Source of the DNA: Planctomycetota bacterium
Lineage (GTDB): Bacteria > Planctomycetota > UBA8742 > JACQVU01 > JANLHZ01
Reading direction: 5' to 3'
DNA: 32,129 nucleotides
NCBI GenBank assembly: GCA_024653775.1
Contig: JANLHZ010000010.1
Location: forward strand, 1 to 32,129
The notes under the pieces are model-generated. The model was given only the letters and a program-made list of their open reading frames with translations. It searched no databases and had not been told where the DNA came from. Below, in pieces: positions 3,598 through 17,829 of the stretch; position 1 is the first letter of the stretch, and every line of letters begins with the position of its first letter. Position numbers and translations under genes: made by a program.

Positions 3598-4377
3598 CTA
3601 ACCTTCGACCGCGGCGTTGCGTTTCAGCGAAGCGATTATCTGAACGTGTTCGTCGATCATCGATTTGAGCGCCCTCGCGGAATCGCGAACGCGGATCGCC
3701 TCGACCGCGTAGAGATACAGTCCGAAAAGCAGAAGCAGCAGCGCGCTTCCGGCTGTCGCGAGCGTGATCTGGCTTTCATAGGTGCTGAAAATTCCGGGGA
3801 GGGCTTTCGCGCCGGGGTGGACGGTATCGATGTTTTCCGCCGGTTTCCACCAGTAGACGCTCTGGTTCACGACGATCATCATAGGCGACGCGAACAGCAC
3901 GTAGACCGCGCAGAACCTCGCGCGCTTGCTCGGCTCGTCGATCGAAGAGCGTAGAAGTTTGTACGCGAGGTAGATCACGAAAAGGATCAGAGTCGTCACC
4001 AGCCGCGGCTCGCTCCAGAGCCAGTAGGATCCCCATTCCGCCTTGGCCCAGATCATTCCGCAGCCTAGGACCGTGCCGAAGCAGCAGAGGCCGAAGAACA
4101 CGCCAACGTCGGAGCGTACGTCGCGCTTCAAGTCCCTGGCGAGGAGATAGAAAATCGCGTCGATCGCCGCGAGAACGAGGAAAAGATAGCCGATGATCGC
4201 AAGCGGCATCTTGTAGAACAGGATGCGGTAGACCTCGGTCATTTTTGCGACGTTGGGCGCCCAGGTGAACGCCATCGGAAACGAGACGATAAGGAGCACC
4301 GCTCCGAGCATGCAGAGCCATAGCGCGGCCTTGCTGGGCTTCACGGTCTCAGGAATGGTCGAGGTCAAAAGACTCAT
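3598..4377 (-). CDS. ccmC: CcmC/CcsA-family heme-handling membrane protein
   Basis: A 259-residue protein with about six hydrophobic helices and the tryptophan-rich heme-binding segment of the CcmC/CcsA family (WGSYWLWSEPR, 115-125; family form WGxxWxWD or WTWEPR). It would act in the inner membrane in cytochrome c maturation, presenting heme to CcmE. A conserved-looking periplasmic histidine is H187 in TVHPG. The other heme-ligand position, the His of the family motif (Y/I)HVP, appears as K56 in FYKMP, and one extra residue lies in W-S-E-P-R. A strong GGGAGG lies 8-13 bases before the ATG. No ccmA, ccmB, ccmE or ccmF is in the window, so the system is split or reduced. Confidence 0.8.
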   Translation of the reverse strand: MSLLTSTIPETVKPSKAALWLCMLGAVLLIVSFPMAFTWAPNVAKMTEVYRILFYKMPLAIIGYLFLVLAAIDAIFYLLARDLKRDVRSDVGVFFGLCCFGTVLGCGMIWAKAEWGSYWLWSEPRLVTTLILFVIYLAYKLLRSSIDEPSKRARFCAVYVLFASPMMIVVNQSVYWWKPAENIDTVHPGAKALPGIFSTYESQITLATAGSALLLLLFGLYLYAVEAIRVRDSARALKSMIDEHVQIIASLKRNAAVEG

Positions 4378-4490
4378 TTTTCAGCCTCCCGGGACGATTT
4401 CAAGTCTCGCGGTATTTGTGTGTCCGAAACGCAATTCCGATGTATATTTATAAAGTTTGCGACCTGCATCAACGAATTTGAAGGAATTCG

Positions 4491-5699
4491 ATGGCTCGTG
4501 ACATTGCAGTACTAACATATTCCGGCGGCGTCGACTCTCTGCACAGAGCGTTCGCGCTCTCGAAGATTCACAAAATGGAGGTCCACACCGTCGGCGTCGA
4601 CACGGGCGGAATCACGGGCAAGGAACGAATCGCGGCGATAAACAGATGCGAGCAGAATCTCGGGCTGCGAAGAACCGAATTCGTGGACTCGAAGGCAAGC
4701 GCGCTTAAATATTTCGTTCCGTACCTCACGCTCGGACTGTTTTCGCCGCTCGAACTCGCGATGCCGGCAATAAGCGCGGCAAGATTTCTCGAGGCGAAGG
4801 AGGCATCTAGCATCGCGCGAAAAAACGGAGCGAAATGCATCGCGTACGCCGGACTCGCCGCTCATACCGCAAGGCTGATGGAAACGTCCCTTTCGCTGTT
4901 CGCGCCGGGAATTCCGGTTGCGCCAAGCTCGGAAAAAGAAATGCTTTCGCGGGAGGACAAAATCGCGGAATTAAAAGGCGCGGGGCTGATTTTCGATCGC
5001 GCGGAAGAAATATACAGTATAGATCATGCGCTCTGGGTTAGCGTGGCATTCAGAAAACCTCCGGTAATCGCCGGGTCGTCCCAACCGGAGGGTTATTTGA
5101 AACGCGATCTCGACAATGCGTCGAAAAAGGTCAGCGACCGTCTGCGCGATCATCGGATCGGATTCACGGAAGGGCTTCCGATCTCTCTGGACGGCGCGAC
5201 GCATCCCCTCCCGGAGATGATGGAAAAACTCGGCGCCATCGCTCACCAGCACGGCATCGGAACGGAGCCGGGTACACTGTCGAGTCCGCACGACGTGAGA
5301 CTTCGCGCGTTTGTAGACGCCGCGGCGTGGGAGGTGGTCCGCGTAGCTCTGAAGGGAATTTTCGAAGTGGTGCTGACGTACCAGCAACAAAATCTGCTTC
5401 AGACGATCACCGGACGATACGCGGAATTGCTTTCGAGAGGACAGTACTACAATCCTGTAATGCGGGATATGGAAGCGCTGATGGATTCGGTTCGAAAACT
5501 CGTCTCAGGCGAAGTCGTTATCAAGATCGGGATGGGTTCGTGTAAACTCGCGAGCGTCGATTCGCCACGGGACTTCACGTCAAGCCCGCTGCTGAACGTC
5601 GGCAGCGGCAATGATATCTGGAACTTCCGTGACGCGCAGGGCGCCGGACGTCTGGACGGGCTTACCGCGCAGCTAGTGCGCAGGTTTCTCACGGAATGA
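4491..5699 (+). CDS. Divergent argininosuccinate synthase homologue (PP-loop enzyme)
   Basis: A 402-residue protein that follows ArgG along its whole length. It has the ATP PP-loop (Y10-SGGVDS16), a D-T-G pocket (37-39), the region GAKCIAYA (113-120) matching ArgG GAxxxxHG, I177-DHALW before the subdomain break (family DENLW), G255-IG matching GVGR, and a SVDSPRDF tail matching GRESPLSLY. The ArgG signature TGKGNDxxRF, which contacts citrulline and aspartate, is replaced by G121-LAAHTARLM. An ATP-dependent ligation by adenylation is therefore likely, but probably not of citrulline with aspartate. AAGGA precedes the ATG. It is followed after 4 bases by a radical SAM gene, so both are surely co-transcribed and likely share a pathway. 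Confidence 0.8.
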   Translation: MARDIAVLTYSGGVDSLHRAFALSKIHKMEVHTVGVDTGGITGKERIAAINRCEQNLGLRRTEFVDSKASALKYFVPYLTLGLFSPLELAMPAISAARFLEAKEASSIARKNGAKCIAYAGLAAHTARLMETSLSLFAPGIPVAPSSEKEMLSREDKIAELKGAGLIFDRAEEIYSIDHALWVSVAFRKPPVIAGSSQPEGYLKRDLDNASKKVSDRLRDHRIGFTEGLPISLDGATHPLPEMMEKLGAIAHQHGIGTEPGTLSSPHDVRLRAFVDAAAWEVVRVALKGIFEVVLTYQQQNLLQTITGRYAELLSRGQYYNPVMRDMEALMDSVRKLVSGEVVIKIGMGSCKLASVDSPRDFTSSPLLNVGSGNDIWNFRDAQGAGRLDGLTAQLVRRFLTE

Positions 5700-5703
5700 G
5701 CTT

Positions 5704-7734
5704 ATGACTAAAATCCTTTTCTCCTCGGTCTGCAAACCAATCGGGCCGAGCGTCGGAGACACTACCTCCGTGGGTTATGAACTGCTTCACGGACAGGTCA
5801 CGAGATCGCAGGGCATATACTCGCCAAGGGTTGTCCACAAGCAGTTCGCGCTCGATTACATCGCCGAAAATCTCGACGCCCCTTCGACAGTGCTTCACTA
5901 TCCTGCGAGGGAGCACTTCATCAAAGAGCTGAAGAAAGGTCCGGAGATCGTCGGGATTTCATTCGTCTTAAGCACCGCGCACCACATGATCGAAATGTGC
6001 GCGCTCGTGCGCGAGTATGCTCCCGGAGCGAAGATCGTCCTCGGCGGCTACGGAACCGTGATGGACGACGACGAGCTTACACCGCATTGCGACGCGATAT
6101 GCCGCGAGGAAGGCGTCGGCTTTATGCGGAGGTATCTTGGGGAGGAGGAACTTCCCGTCGAAAAGTTCACCCACCCGGAACTGACGAGCAGACTGCGGAT
6201 ATTCGGGATTCCGATAGCGCACACCGCAATGATCTTCGCTGGGCTTGGCTGCCCGAACGGCTGCGATTTCTGCGCCACGTCCCACTTTTTCAGGCGCGAG
6301 CACATAAAACTCCTCGCCACGGGAGATGCGATCTACGAAACCATGGAGTCGTTCCAGAGCAACGACCCGGATTGCGAATTCACGATCCTCGACGAGGATT
6401 TCCTGCTCAATGAAAAACGCGCGAGACGGTTTCTTCAGCTTTGCCGGGAAAAGCAGCGATCGTTCCCAACCTTCTGTTTCGCGTCGGTGCGCGCGCTTTC
6501 GAAGTTCACTTACGAGGAACTTCACGAAATGGGAATCGACGGCATCTGGGTCGGGTACGAAGGAAGGGAGTCTGGATACGACAAGCACCACGGTCGCGAC
6601 ATCGACGAACTCATCCGCGATCTGCAGGCACACGGAATATCGGTGCTGACGTCGATGATCGTCGGCATTCCGTATCAGACCGCCGAAATCGCAAGAAAGG
6701 AATTCCGCGGGCTGATGGAAGATAAGCCGTCGCTGAGTCAGTTCCTGATTTACGGACCGACGCCCGGCACCCCGTTTTACGAGAAGGTTGTCAGGGAAGG
6801 ACTTCTGCGCGATGAAATGCTGAGCGATCGAGCAAAGTATTACAAAAGCTGCACAGGCTTTAAGTCAATGGTCAACCATCCGTTCATGCCTCCGGAGGAC
6901 ATCGAGGCGCTTCAGGAGGAATTCTACAGGGAAGATTTCAGGATTCTGGGACCGTCGATTTTCCGGATGATAGACGTCAAGCTGAACGGCTATCTAAAAT
7001 ACAAGGACTCCGAAAACCCGATGCTTCGGAAGAAAGCCGCGGAGTTCAGGGACAAACTTGCGAAATACCTTGCGGTGCTTCCCGTCGGCATCGTCGGACC
7101 GCAGGTTTCCTTAAAAAACCGTCTGCTATATCTGAAGCGGTATTTCCAGATTCTTTTCGCGACCTCGTTCGCGCAGAAGGCGATGGTCCTCGCGGCTCCG
7201 ATCATGCTTGTCGCCGCTGCGATTACATTCATCACAAGGCTGTTCAACTTTGGCGAGCACCCTGTATCGAGGTACCACCACTATTTTGGACGGAAGTCGA
7301 TGCAGAAACCCGTGAAGCTGGCGACGACTCTTTACAATCTTCTGCACGTGCGAAGAGAGACGACCTGTATCCCGTTCTGGCGAAAGCTGAGCTGGAGAGC
7401 GATAATGTCTCTTCGATTGTCGCCAAAGTTGTGGCTTCCTCGCAGGGATGCGCTCGAGGACTGGATGCGCAGGGCGAGGCAGAAACTTCAGGGCAAGGGA
7501 TTCGAGACGGATGGCCTCGATGAAATGCGCACACAGATCTACGGCCTGCATGCGAGGTTCGACGCCGCGAAGAGACGCTACAAACAGTTCAAGGCGGAAG
7601 TTGGTTCCCGCTCGCGGGAGAAGCTCGCGGAACTGAAGTCCGACATCAAGGCCGCGAAGGCGGAACTCAAGCGAAGAATCGTTGAAATGCGCCTCACCAT
7701 CCGCCTTGCGTACGCGGGTGAAACCGCGGAGTGA
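5704..7734 (+). CDS. B12-binding radical SAM protein with membrane/coiled-coil tail
   Basis: A 676-residue protein. Residues 1-165 resemble a cobalamin-binding Rossmann domain (VGISFVLSTAHH, then KIVLGGYGTVMDD). The radical SAM cluster motif is C183-PNGC187-DFC190, followed by an ELP-like barrel with DEDFLL (about 228-233) and GIDGIWVGYEG. The B12-binding/radical SAM group includes BchE-like cyclases, methylases and ring-contracting enzymes, so the reaction could be methylation or C-C bond formation. After about residue 400 comes a long extension with a hydrophobic segment (about 495-516, AMVLAAPIMLVAAAITFI) and a charged helical end (590-670) likely to form coiled coil, pointing to membrane attachment. 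It starts 4 bases after the ArgG-like gene, suggesting translational coupling. The substrate is unknown. Confidence 0.85.
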   Translation: MTKILFSSVCKPIGPSVGDTTSVGYELLHGQVTRSQGIYSPRVVHKQFALDYIAENLDAPSTVLHYPAREHFIKELKKGPEIVGISFVLSTAHHMIEMCALVREYAPGAKIVLGGYGTVMDDDELTPHCDAICREEGVGFMRRYLGEEELPVEKFTHPELTSRLRIFGIPIAHTAMIFAGLGCPNGCDFCATSHFFRREHIKLLATGDAIYETMESFQSNDPDCEFTILDEDFLLNEKRARRFLQLCREKQRSFPTFCFASVRALSKFTYEELHEMGIDGIWVGYEGRESGYDKHHGRDIDELIRDLQAHGISVLTSMIVGIPYQTAEIARKEFRGLMEDKPSLSQFLIYGPTPGTPFYEKVVREGLLRDEMLSDRAKYYKSCTGFKSMVNHPFMPPEDIEALQEEFYREDFRILGPSIFRMIDVKLNGYLKYKDSENPMLRKKAAEFRDKLAKYLAVLPVGIVGPQVSLKNRLLYLKRYFQILFATSFAQKAMVLAAPIMLVAAAITFITRLFNFGEHPVSRYHHYFGRKSMQKPVKLATTLYNLLHVRRETTCIPFWRKLSWRAIMSLRLSPKLWLPRRDALEDWMRRARQKLQGKGFETDGLDEMRTQIYGLHARFDAAKRRYKQFKAEVGSRSREKLAELKSDIKAAKAELKRRIVEMRLTIRLAYAGETAE

Positions 7735-7743
7735 CCGATCATG

Positions 7744-7995
7744 TTACCCGATTTCATCGAGCGTCGGAGCATCGTAGGCGATCAGCACGAAAAGCTCTCG
7801 CGGACCATGCGCGGGCATCACGAGGATTTTTTCGACGTCCGCGGTCCTGCTGGCGCCCGTGATTATCGTCGTCCAGACGCCGGGGGATTTTTCCGCGCGG
7901 CACTCCGCGAGATAATAGCCAGGGTAGTGATAGATGGCGTCCGCCTTGGAAAACGATAAACGCGGCGTCATCAGGGGATGCAGTCTCTGGTCAAT
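7744..7995 (-). pseudogene. Truncated duplicate of the lutC-type 3' end
   Basis: The reverse strand encodes about 75-80 residues (best seen from 7971) that repeat the C-terminal third of the neighbouring LutC-type protein. Both share TTIITGASRTADVEKILVM, then AHGPRELFVLIA and DAPTL. The DNA is also highly similar: 7747-7860 against 8144-8257 has only scattered changes. The copy lacks the N-terminal two thirds, and its frame ends early at GG-TAA where the intact gene runs on for about ten residues. It begins just after the stop of the radical SAM gene. This is a degenerate tandem duplication; the upstream boundary is approximate. Confidence 0.85.
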
Positions 7996-8106: not shown

Positions 8107-8724
8107 TTATTTGAATTTTATCAGGTCGTTTGAAGCAGCGCGGATTTCGTTGAGCGTTGGAGCATCGTCGGCGATCAGCACGAAAAGCTCTCGCGGACCG
8201 TGCGCGGGCATCACAAGGATTTTTTCGACGTCCGCGGTCCTGCTGGCGCCCGTGATTATCGTCGTCCACACGCCAGGACGCTTCTCGCCCGCCGCGGCTG
8301 CGAGGTAATCTCCGAGGTAGTGCACAACGCTGTCCGCACGCGCGACGATTATCGACGTCAGAACGAGCAGCGACGCGTAGCTCTCCTCGTCGGTTCGGAA
8401 ACTGAGCGCCGCGCCACCTGTGTCCGCGATGAGCGCATCGCAGGCGGAAATCCCGAACTCGTGGTCGCGAAGCTCCGCAGGCCGATCCTGGTAAATGACA
8501 TCCTTCGAACCCGCGACTATTTCGCGGATTCGCGCCAGCGTTGCGTCCTTCGTTTTCGTGTACTCAGCGTGGTCGAGGGCACCAGCGAAAACCTCCGCGT
8601 CGCAGAACTTCGCGATAAGCGCGTCCTTGTCCACGAGTCGCGCCTCTTCGTCGAACGGCAACGAAACCTCGGGCCGCGGTACGCGCGCAACGCCTTTCAG
8701 TTGTTTCTTTATCTCGTCGAGCAT
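8107..8724 (-). CDS. lutC: LUD-domain protein, LutC/YkgG type
   Basis: A 205-residue protein with the LUD fold of LutC. Signature parts are FGISACDALIADTGGAALS (about 98-116) and the C-terminal GASRTADVEKILV...AHGPREL (about 158-181), which match the family pattern G-SxTADIE...GxHGP. LutC works with LutA and LutB in the iron-sulfur lactate dehydrogenase complex in the cytoplasm. Here no lutA or lutB lies within the window, so either the other subunits are elsewhere or this is a stand-alone LUD protein. The ATG start is preceded by a modest GAGAG. It is divergent from the CoA-transferase gene, 70 bases between starts. A broken copy of its 3' end lies downstream. Confidence 0.85.
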   Translation of the reverse strand: MLDEIKKQLKGVARVPRPEVSLPFDEEARLVDKDALIAKFCDAEVFAGALDHAEYTKTKDATLARIREIVAGSKDVIYQDRPAELRDHEFGISACDALIADTGGAALSFRTDEESYASLLVLTSIIVARADSVVHYLGDYLAAAAGEKRPGVWTTIITGASRTADVEKILVMPAHGPRELFVLIADDAPTLNEIRAASNDLIKFK

Positions 8725-8770
8725 AAACTACACTCTCAAACTCCGCACACAGGTTTGCACGGATAAACCG

Positions 8771-8797
8771 AAAATCAAAAATCAAAAATCAAAAATG
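8771..8797. repeat. 7-bp tandem repeat (AAAAATC) ending in a start codon
   Basis: Units run AAAATC (8771-8776), AAAAATC (8777-8783), AAAAATC (8784-8790) and AAAAATG (8791-8797). The last unit supplies the ATG of the CoA-transferase by a C-to-G difference. No Shine-Dalgarno sequence lies in the usual place, which the repeat occupies. Copy-number change would alter the leader but not the reading frame. Confidence 0.7.
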
Positions 8798-14621: not shown

Positions 14622-15815
14622 ATGACCGATAATGAACTTGAACAACTTTTGTCGGATATAGAGTCCGACATTTGCGAAAGAACGTCATCCGAAAAGGATA
14701 CCGACAAGATCAGGAAGGCAATCTGCGCGTTCGCCAACGATTTGCCAAATTATGGACGTGCCGGGATACTTTTTATAGGAGTTGACGACAATGGAACTCC
14801 AGTTGGACTATCCATCACAGATCGCTTGCTGCAAACTCTTTCGTCTATGCGGGATGATGGGAACATCGTTCCACTGCCGTCCATAGACGTTCAAAAGCGA
14901 AAGCTGAAAGGAGAGGAGGTGGCCGCGGTATTCGTCTACCCTTCGAAGGCGCCTCCGGTCAGGTTCAAGGGAACCGTTTGGATTCGATCAGGTCCGAGGC
15001 GAGGCATCGCGAGCTCCGATGACGAACGCAGATTGAATGAGAAGCGCAGGCATGGAGATTTGTCCTTCGACATAAGGCCGGTCCAGTCCGCGAGCATCGA
15101 CGATCTAGACGAGTCACTTTTTAGGCGCGAATATCTACCCGCCGCGATCGACCCTGAAATCTTATCGCGGAACAACAGGACACTGGAACATCAACTCATA
15201 GCCACGAAATTCGCCCACCTCGGTCCGCCGACGCTGCCGACGACGCTTGGCATACTTGCCATCGGTAAGGCGCCAACCGACTGGATACCCGGCGCGTATG
15301 TTCAAATCATCCGTTTTGACGGCGAAACTCTCGGCGACCCGATTATCGCAAAAAACGAAATCCGGGGTCCGTTACCTGAATTGCTGATTCGTTCGGAAAG
15401 CGCTTTGAAACTTAATATTCGAACGGCTGTCGATTTAACTTCATCGGACCTGGAAGTAAATACGCCCGACTATCCTGTCGAGGCTTTACAGCAAATATTC
15501 AGGAACGCTATTCTGCACCGAAACTATGAAAATACAGGTGCGCCCGTGAACGTGTACTGGTTCAACGACAGGATAGAGTTTCATTCTCCTGGAGGTCCTT
15601 ATGGACAGGTCACGCTGGAAAACTTCGGCAATCCGGGAATGTCTGATTATCGTAACCCGAATCTCGCCGCGGTCATGAAGGAACTGTCTTTCGTCCAGCA
15701 TTTCGGTGTTGGAATCGAAACTTGTCGATCCGCGATGAAGCGCAACGGGAATCCCGAGCCTGTGTTTCAGGTGCAGCATTCCCACGTTGCGGTGATCCTG
15801 CGGAGGCGACAATGA
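14622..15815 (+). CDS. AlbA_2 (Schlafen-like) plus C-terminal ATP-binding-domain protein
   Basis: A 397-residue protein. Residues of about 18-130 match the AlbA_2/Schlafen AlbA domain: KAICAFANDLPNYGRAGILFIGVDDNGTPVG (32-62), then a PPVRFKGTVWIRSGPRR block (111-127). Residues of about 285-385 match the HATPase_c_4 region (YPVEALQQIFRNAILHRNY, then FNDRIEFHSPGG and GVGIE). Such proteins are usually annotated as ATP-dependent helicase-like or transcriptional regulators; several occur in defence islands. Its stop overlaps the ATG of the ParA-like gene (ATGA), so the two are translated together. Role unknown; nucleic-acid binding with ATP control is a reasonable guess. Confidence 0.85.
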   Translation: MTDNELEQLLSDIESDICERTSSEKDTDKIRKAICAFANDLPNYGRAGILFIGVDDNGTPVGLSITDRLLQTLSSMRDDGNIVPLPSIDVQKRKLKGEEVAAVFVYPSKAPPVRFKGTVWIRSGPRRGIASSDDERRLNEKRRHGDLSFDIRPVQSASIDDLDESLFRREYLPAAIDPEILSRNNRTLEHQLIATKFAHLGPPTLPTTLGILAIGKAPTDWIPGAYVQIIRFDGETLGDPIIAKNEIRGPLPELLIRSESALKLNIRTAVDLTSSDLEVNTPDYPVEALQQIFRNAILHRNYENTGAPVNVYWFNDRIEFHSPGGPYGQVTLENFGNPGMSDYRNPNLAAVMKELSFVQHFGVGIETCRSAMKRNGNPEPVFQVQHSHVAVILRRRQ

Positions 15816-16813
15816 GCGTTCCCGTCATCGCATTCTTCAACAATAAAGGCGGAGTAGGAAAAACATCGATGGTGTACCATCTTTCGTGGATGTTTGCCGA
15901 CCGCGGGCTAAGGATAGTCGCGGCCGATATCGATCCTCAGTGCAACCTGTCCGCTGCGTTTCTGGACGAAGAGAGGCTGCTTCAGGTCAATCCTCCCGGT
16001 GGCGATCATGCGCTTACGATTTTTGGAAGCGTACAACCTTTAAGACGCGGTACTGGCGATATAGCCGACCCGCATGTCGAAATTATTTCGGACCGACTCG
16101 GGCTTATCGTAGGCGATATGTCTCTTTCGACCTTCGAGGATCAACTGTCCGAGGTCTGGCCCAAGTGCATGGACAGGGACGAACGAGCGTTTCGAACGAC
16201 GTCTTCGTTTTTCAGATTGACTCAAAACGCGGCGTTGAAACACGGAGCCGACGCGATCCTGATCGATATCGGCCCGAACCTTGGAGCAATCAACCGCGCC
16301 GCGCTTATCGCGTCGGATTTCGTCGTTATTCCACTTGGACCGGACCTTTTCTCGATTCAGGGTCTTACTAACCTCGGTCCGGCGCTCCGCAGTTGGCGAG
16401 TCGAATGGAAAGACCGATTGGTTAGGAACCCCGCGAAGGAAATCCAGCTCCCCGCCGGAAATATCGAACCCATAGGATACGTTGTCCTTCGTCATACTAT
16501 CAGGCTCGATCGTCCGGTGAAGGCGTTCGATCGCTGGATTGCCCGGATGCCATCGACGTATTCCGAATCGGTGCTCAACGAGGGTGCTAAATCGGAGTTG
16601 ACAGTGGAAAAAGACATCAACTGCCTGGCAAGGATCAAGGATTATCGCTCTCTGATCCCACTGGCGCAGGAAGCCCGGAAACCTATGTTTTCCCTTCGCG
16701 CCGGGGATGGCGCGCTCGGCGCTCATTTGAATTACGTTGAAGAGGCACGTAAAGACTTCTTTAATCTCGCTGTAAAAATTGCCAAAAACGCCAATTTGAA
16801 GGAACTCTCGTGA
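15812..16813 (+). CDS. ParA/MinD-family ATPase
   Basis: A 333-residue SIMIBI-class ATPase. It has the deviant Walker A motif (N11-KGGVGKTS19), switch region ADIDPQCNLSAAF (38-50) and Walker B-type ILIDIGPNLGAINRAAL (about 149-165), followed by VVIPLGPDLFS, all as in ParA. No ParB gene or centromere-like array is adjacent, so a plasmid-partition role is not supported. Instead it overlaps an AlbA_2/ATPase gene upstream (ATGA) and bioB downstream (GTGA). ParA-like ATPases paired with AlbA_2 proteins suggest a positioning or defence-type module. The C-terminal third (about 200-333) is not typical ParA sequence and may carry the partner-binding part. Confidence 0.85.
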   Translation: MSVPVIAFFNNKGGVGKTSMVYHLSWMFADRGLRIVAADIDPQCNLSAAFLDEERLLQVNPPGGDHALTIFGSVQPLRRGTGDIADPHVEIISDRLGLIVGDMSLSTFEDQLSEVWPKCMDRDERAFRTTSSFFRLTQNAALKHGADAILIDIGPNLGAINRAALIASDFVVIPLGPDLFSIQGLTNLGPALRSWRVEWKDRLVRNPAKEIQLPAGNIEPIGYVVLRHTIRLDRPVKAFDRWIARMPSTYSESVLNEGAKSELTVEKDINCLARIKDYRSLIPLAQEARKPMFSLRAGDGALGAHLNYVEEARKDFFNLAVKIAKNANLKELS

Positions 16814-17829
16814 CCACACTGAATCTCGAACTTCCCTCTGTCATCGCGGCGGACGCGATGCGAGTACTTTCCATCGCGCGGAGGATCGTCCTGACCGGCG
16901 AGGGCGCCGAGCGAGACGAAGCTGAATTCATCGCGGGCTATCCGCTAGAGTACCTGACCGACGTTTTCGCCGGCGCGAACCGCATCCGCATACATTTCCG
17001 CGGCGAAGAGATTCACCGCTGCAGAATCGCGAACGTCAAAAGCGGCAAATGCGAGGAGCGCTGCGACTTCTGCCGGCAGAGCGCGCACTTCAACGCCGAT
17101 TCGCCCGAATATCCGCTGGTAGACGAGGCAACGATCCTCCGCGAAGCCGAGCAAGCGGAGAAGGACACCGCCGCGGAACTCGGACTCGTCGCGTCTGGCT
17201 ACGGCCTAGGCGACGGCCCGGACTTCGAAAAGCTGCTCGAAAGCGTGACCGCGGTGAAGAATCAGGGAAAGGTGAACCCGCACGCAAGCCTCGGCATCAT
17301 TCCGGAAAGCTCGCTTCGAAGGCTGAAAGACGCTGGACTCGAGATGTACCACCACAACCTCGAAACCGCGCGACGTCATCATCCGAGCATCGTTCACTCG
17401 CACACTTACGACGAGGAGGTCAGCGTTATTCGCGCTGCGAAGAAGGTCGGGCTGAAGACATGCTCCGGCGGCATCCTCGGAATGGGGGAGACCGAGGAGG
17501 ACCGCATCGACTTCGCGTACGAGCTTGCGGACCTTGCGCCCGACACGATCCCGCTGAACTTCTACGTCGACGTTCACGGCACTCCGCTTTTCGGGAAGGT
17601 CACGCCTATGGAGCCACGCGAGATTCTGCGCGTCATTTCGCTTTACCGTTTCGTGAATCCGCGGGCGGACATCCTGATCGCCGCGGGGCGCGCCCAGCAT
17701 CTTCGCGACCTGCAATCGATGATCTTCTTCGCGGGCGCAAGCGGAATGATGATCGGGGACTTCCTGACGACGCCGGGCAGAACCGTTAGCGACGACGTCC
17801 TGATGCTTCGCGACCTCGGAATGGCGTGA
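16810..17829 (+). CDS. bioB: Biotin synthase, probably the anaerobe-type (type II) class
   Basis: A 339-residue radical SAM enzyme that would insert sulfur into dethiobiotin in the last step of biotin synthesis. The SAM cluster motif is C81-EERC85-DFC88, then CSGGILGMGET (about 217-227), NFYVDVHGTPL and FFAGASGMMIGDFLTTPGR. The cysteines that hold the [2Fe-2S] cluster in E. coli BioB (C97, C128) and R260 are not present at the aligned positions. Instead an extra C71 precedes the motif in C71-RIANVKSGKC, as in Bacteroides-like enzymes. The GTG start overlaps the ParA-like stop. No other bio gene is in the window. Confidence 0.88.
   Translation: MTTLNLELPSVIAADAMRVLSIARRIVLTGEGAERDEAEFIAGYPLEYLTDVFAGANRIRIHFRGEEIHRCRIANVKSGKCEERCDFCRQSAHFNADSPEYPLVDEATILREAEQAEKDTAAELGLVASGYGLGDGPDFEKLLESVTAVKNQGKVNPHASLGIIPESSLRRLKDAGLEMYHHNLETARRHHPSIVHSHTYDEEVSVIRAAKKVGLKTCSGGILGMGETEEDRIDFAYELADLAPDTIPLNFYVDVHGTPLFGKVTPMEPREILRVISLYRFVNPRADILIAAGRAQHLRDLQSMIFFAGASGMMIGDFLTTPGRTVSDDVLMLRDLGMA

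Follow-up and report, generated by a model that had tools for sequence, protein, structure and literature searches.

The window, by which we mean the whole stretch of DNA that was analysed, is 32,129 nt long and constitutes an entire contig (C158) of a Planctomycetota genome of 5.4 Mb in 331 contigs. Two open reading frames on its plus strand, 4491–5699 (402 amino acids) and 5704–7734 (676 amino acids), encode a protein resembling argininosuccinate synthase (ArgG) and a radical SAM protein. The two frames are 4 nt apart, bearing out the preliminary description, which had placed the start of the second gene four bases past the first. The features of the pair are as follows:

4476–4490, plus strand: probable ribosome-binding site, GAAGGAATTCG, ahead of the ATG of the ArgG-like gene (sequence)
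4491–5699, plus strand: ArgG-like gene, 402 amino acids (open reading frame, Pfam, NCBIfam, AlphaFold model with pLDDT 79 and pTM 0.80, Foldseek matches to ArgG structures)
4518–4538, plus strand: retained PP-loop YSGGVDS, residues 10–16 (alignment)
4845–4880, plus strand: site where the TGxGNDxxRF signature has degenerated, reading Y119-A-G-L-A-A-H-T-A-R-L-M130 with one residue deleted (alignment of 27 relatives, alignments to solved structures)
5700–5703, plus strand: intergenic gap of 4 bases, GCTT (sequence)
5704–7734, plus strand: gene for a radical SAM protein with a B12-binding-like N-terminal domain, 676 amino acids (open reading frame, Pfam, NCBIfam, model, fold search)
5890–6117, plus strand: match to a B12-binding-like domain, residues 63–138, without DxHxxG (Pfam, motif scan)
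6250–6273, plus strand: radical SAM cluster motif CPNGCDFC, residues 183–190 (sequence)
7180–7236, plus strand: hydrophobic segment, residues 493–511, a possible membrane anchor (mean hydropathy 2.31)
7510–7716, plus strand: charged helical hairpin or coiled-coil-like tail, residues 603–671, found in the window copy alone (AlphaFold model)

The pair forms an isolated two-gene unit, because it is bounded upstream by a divergent CcmC-like gene (3598–4377, minus strand) and downstream by a LUD-domain gene that also lies on the minus strand (8107–8724). Codon usage in both genes is ordinary for the contig and within the range of their neighbours.

Several other features of the window were recorded. 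A broken tandem duplicate of the LUD gene separates the intact copy from the radical SAM gene: positions 7744–7971 (minus strand) are a partial copy of the 3′ part of the LUD gene, and a 135-nt stretch of this copy is 94% identical to 8143–8277. A tract at 8769–8797, TCAAAAATCAAAAATCAAAAATG, lies directly ahead of a possible CoA-transferase-like reading frame, and stretches of 26–39 nt resembling it recur elsewhere in the genome, on at least 11 other contigs. Farther along, at 14622–17829 on the plus strand, a Schlafen/AlbA_2 gene, an overlapping gene for a ParA/MinD-type ATPase and a gene for a BATS radical SAM protein follow one another. No RNA elements were found in the window, the short open reading frames in its gaps yielded no convincing RiPP precursor, and neither the ArgG-like nor the radical SAM protein had a PADLOC match to anti-phage defence.

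The ArgG-like protein matches the Pfam family Arginosuc_syn_C at 60.3 bits (cutoff 27) and falls slightly below the same cutoff for the N-terminal Arginosuc_synth family (24.2 bits). Against the NCBIfam equivalog model for ArgG, TIGR00032, it reaches 89.5 bits, far from the cutoff of 268.2. Nor does it belong to the argininosuccinate synthase-related family NF038212 (argG_rel), which it resembles in being a divergent ArgG paralogue and from which it differs in score (54 bits against a cutoff of 425). Arginosuc_syn_C matches three proteins in the genome, and the other two are ArgGs above the TIGR00032 cutoff, with 316 bits (contig C198) and 337 bits (contig C107); the ArgG-like protein is thus not the genome's only ArgG, and only the opposite would have counted against the preliminary description on this point. 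Judged by its sequence, it is a third ArgG paralogue and is predicted not to be the arginine enzyme, since it has lost the signature of the family and two proper ArgGs are encoded elsewhere in the genome. Two ArgG matches also occur in at least 17 of 20 genomes of the class that includes L002, L003 and their relatives: type A, which reads TGAGNDQxRFD and has the equivalents of Glu191, Glu270 and Tyr282 replaced, and type B, which reads GNDQFRFE.

To what extent the catalytic residues survive is best seen in human argininosuccinate synthase (ASS) numbering, which we assigned ourselves from the alignments of relatives and solved structures, using published lists of ATP and citrulline/aspartate residues and of their sensitivity to mutation (PMC13289927). 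The ATP contacts Ser12, Gly14, Asp16, Thr17 (as Ser), Arg95, Ser180 and Asp182 are kept, which amounts to 7 of the 10 most mutation-sensitive positions. The contacts that changed, Gly117 (to Ala), Thr119 and Asp124, all lie inside the lost signature. None of the nine citrulline/aspartate residues (Tyr87, Thr119, Asn123, Asp124, Arg127, Ser189, Glu191, Glu270 and Tyr282) is kept, and the TGxGNDxxRF site aligns as LAAHTARL-M, one residue short. About five of the nine survive in type-A ArgGs, so that one part of the loss, at Ser189, Glu191, Glu270 and Tyr282, is common to the clade; the losses of Tyr87, Thr119, Asn123, Asp124 and Arg127 are peculiar to this protein. As far as can be read from the alignment, then, the losses are unevenly spread over function: most of the ATP half survives, and the citrulline/aspartate half is erased. 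Both the retained ATP loop (SGGVDS) and the missing citrulline/aspartate signature had been noticed in the preliminary description, and both observations stand. In human ASS, G117S prevents the use of ATP (PMC3475689), and changes at Thr119, Asn123, Asp124, Arg127, Glu191 or Glu270 are highly deleterious (PMC13289927). Across an alignment of the ArgG-like protein with 26 relatives, in which 94 columns were at least 90% conserved, it departs at 50 of these columns, and type-A ArgGs depart at 0–7; the genome's own type-B ArgG, a member of another clade, departs at 54 of 102 conserved columns.

The ArgG fold is retained, as first proposed. An AlphaFold model of the protein (pLDDT 79, pTM 0.80), in which the C-terminal arm past residue 366 is unreliable, finds its best E-value in Foldseek among ArgG structures (2.8e-25 to 1kh1), so that a chance match is no concern. 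The same search aligns it to ArtA with TM-scores of 0.73–0.80 and r.m.s.d. values of 3.3–3.7. ArtA is an ArgG-like nitrile synthetase, reportedly described in ACS Catal in 2025. We take its identity from the titles of PDB entries 9leh and 9lei and from PMC13060819, where the work is cited as reference 13. Aligned to solved structures, ArtA reads LSQNSLRRLNSS where ArgG has TGKGNDQVRF and the ArgG-like protein has LAAHTARLMETS. The two proteins therefore share the ArgG fold, the absence of TGxGNDxxRF and a Leu at the place of Thr119; they differ in that they are only about 20% identical and arise separately in the tree. That ArtA lost the same signature means that an active ArgG-fold enzyme without the motif is possible. 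A maximum-likelihood tree nests the ArgG-like protein within the clade of type-A ArgGs (support 100/100); its branch measures 4.33 changes per column, where the median is 0.34. Grouping it with ArtA in one clade was rejected (p-AU 0.011), if not beyond doubt, as both are long branches. The analogy with ArtA is accordingly one of convergent motif loss, not of kinship, given the position inside type A.

The second protein combines CPNGCDFC, an instance of CxxxCxxC, with a match to the Pfam family Radical_SAM (PF04055, 39.5 bits, cutoff 29.5) and a partial match to the B12-binding family PF02310 (35.0 bits, cutoff 32.1). These support its earlier assignment as a cobalamin-type radical SAM protein so far as architecture goes. 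DxHxxG is absent from it and from 21 relatives, so 'cobalamin-type' describes the fold and not a shown use of the cofactor; the motif is not needed by every member of the cobalamin-binding (class B) radical SAM enzymes. Of the membrane/coiled-coil tail that had also been proposed, the hydrophobic segment and the hairpin are present in the window copy, where the helix at 493–511 is strong; the helix is weaker in most orthologues, leaving a membrane location speculative. The radical SAM core finishes near residue 530, and the tail beyond it varies: where the window copy has the hairpin, a weak STAS-like domain stands in some orthologues. The family, with five C-termini of relatives compared, swaps its tail between none, a weak STAS-like domain (STAS_2 at 26 bits in the relative L104) and the hairpin of the window copy.

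The nearest solved folds are AprD4, a radical SAM 1,2-diol dehydratase (6fd2), and TsrM (6wtf), at E-values of about 1e-11. Identity to them is 13–14%, and the present protein differs further in two additions, a hydrophobic helix and a tail folded as a helical hairpin. Among NCBIfam models the best match is HpnJ (TIGR03471), a radical SAM protein with a B12 domain that acts in hopanoid side-chain synthesis, but the score of 51 bits is far from the cutoff of 577.6 and the protein is not a member. A hopanoid link was rejected, the genome giving only partial squalene-hopene-cyclase-like matches and no full one, and the lipid substrate that had been suggested for the pair is guesswork.

The pairing itself was seen in one genome only among those searched. 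We inspected the surroundings of 29 further members of the radical SAM family, as far as about 9 kb to either side and in some cases cut by contig ends; none of the 29 has an ArgG-like gene, including the 17 around close orthologues. Close orthologues, 42–51% identical over the aligned length, occur in several families of the same phylum. Eight radical SAM carriers of the same class (G003, G007, G008, G012, G016, G017, G041 and G022) have two ordinary ArgG matches each and no third. Among 392 genomes drawn from the phylum, none yielded an orthologue of the ArgG-like protein: the best match among those listed is 31% identical, and of the ten listed apart from the protein itself, the nine that were aligned all keep GND. 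Further draws, from two other classes and again from the phylum (the latter apparently almost the same genome set as the first), gave no match at an E-value of 1e-41 or better. Viral contigs gave no match, and plasmids gave matches of about 25–27% identity, the annotated ones listed being named argininosuccinate synthase. Scanning 84,980 species genomes by exact 8-residue words, an approach insensitive to distant orthologues, returned a single match, which was rejected as not ArgG-like: the open reading frame there looks like that of a CorA-like transporter, and the peptide in common is a coincidence. The one other genome that represented the order, which is 79% complete, has neither gene at the thresholds used. 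With the order so thinly represented, an origin within it is possible. The expectation of a conserved pair, and with it of a conserved coupled pathway, is thus not borne out in the genomes searched; in relatives the radical SAM family stands alone.

From its intact frame and its ArgG-like predicted fold, the first protein appears to be a working enzyme put to a new use, and we consider it probable that it is a functional, adenylating paralogue of argininosuccinate synthase. That its 402-codon frame has stayed open along so long a branch speaks for this reading; the altered ATP contacts at Gly117, Thr119 and Asp124, the first now Ala, speak against it. As an AMP-forming ligase or an enzyme of the nitrile-synthase type, it would activate an amide, ureido or carboxylate oxygen to form an AMP intermediate, which would then either lose AMP to give a nitrile, as a comparison with ArtA suggests, or react with a nucleophile that is not aspartate. 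Its gene may have been recruited in this lineage into an operon with the gene of a radical SAM enzyme that was there before and elsewhere stands alone; this enzyme would act on the same molecule or in the same pathway. Taken whole, repurposing together with a shared pathway, the statement is one to which we give slightly less than even credence, the occurrence of the pair in a single genome counting against it. The more specific proposal of a new two-enzyme pathway, in which the ArgG-derived enzyme installs a nitrile, an amidine or a group of the guanidine type and the B12-fold radical SAM enzyme modifies the same molecule, is speculative.

The alternative that survives best, possible if rather doubtful, is that two independent genes share one transcript, with the radical SAM protein acting as it does in relatives and the ArgG-like protein in an unrelated pathway. 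The empty neighbourhoods of the radical SAM family and the eight carriers without a third ArgG match argue for it. Against it stand the 4-nt spacing and the two-gene unit, which make co-translation likely; bacterial gene pairs at short distance are usually functionally linked.

It is unlikely that the ArgG-like protein is a pseudoenzyme without catalytic activity, its fold kept so that it can serve as a subunit or regulator, whether of the radical SAM enzyme or of the genome's real ArgG. The disappearance of all nine substrate residues and of the conserved Gly117, Thr119 and Asp124, along with the very long branch, would fit such a role, but the SGGxDS PP-loop and the equivalents of Arg95, Ser180 and Asp182 would be needless for a pure scaffold, and ArtA is active in this fold without the motif. 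A decaying, non-functional copy is very improbable: many conserved positions are lost and the broken copy of the neighbouring gene just downstream indicates that the region was rearranged, but the frame is intact, with a good ribosome-binding site and ordinary codon usage, and neutral drift would not leave it open, with PP-loop and fold kept, after more than four changes per column. Least credible of all is a merely divergent argininosuccinate synthase, for which the shared features of the family (TIGR00032; PF00764 and PF20979), namely fold, domain, length, PP-loop and the Ser180, Asp182 and Arg95 equivalents, and the place within type A can be cited, but which would have to work at one third of the equivalog cutoff, beside two other ArgGs above it and without any of the nine citrulline/aspartate residues, six of which (Thr119, Asn123, Asp124, Arg127, Glu191 and Glu270) are those whose change is highly deleterious to the human enzyme (PMC13289927).

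We return to a repurposed adenylating enzyme as the preferred reading. As an orphan in one genome, the protein carries limited weight. A single reaction is ascribed to the ArgG family. If the preferred reading is right, the ArgG scaffold would have been repurposed at least twice, in ArtA and, separately, here, and automatic 'ArgG' labels based on the C-terminal Pfam domain can mislead. Should an activity be found, a natural adenylating tool enzyme would be gained.
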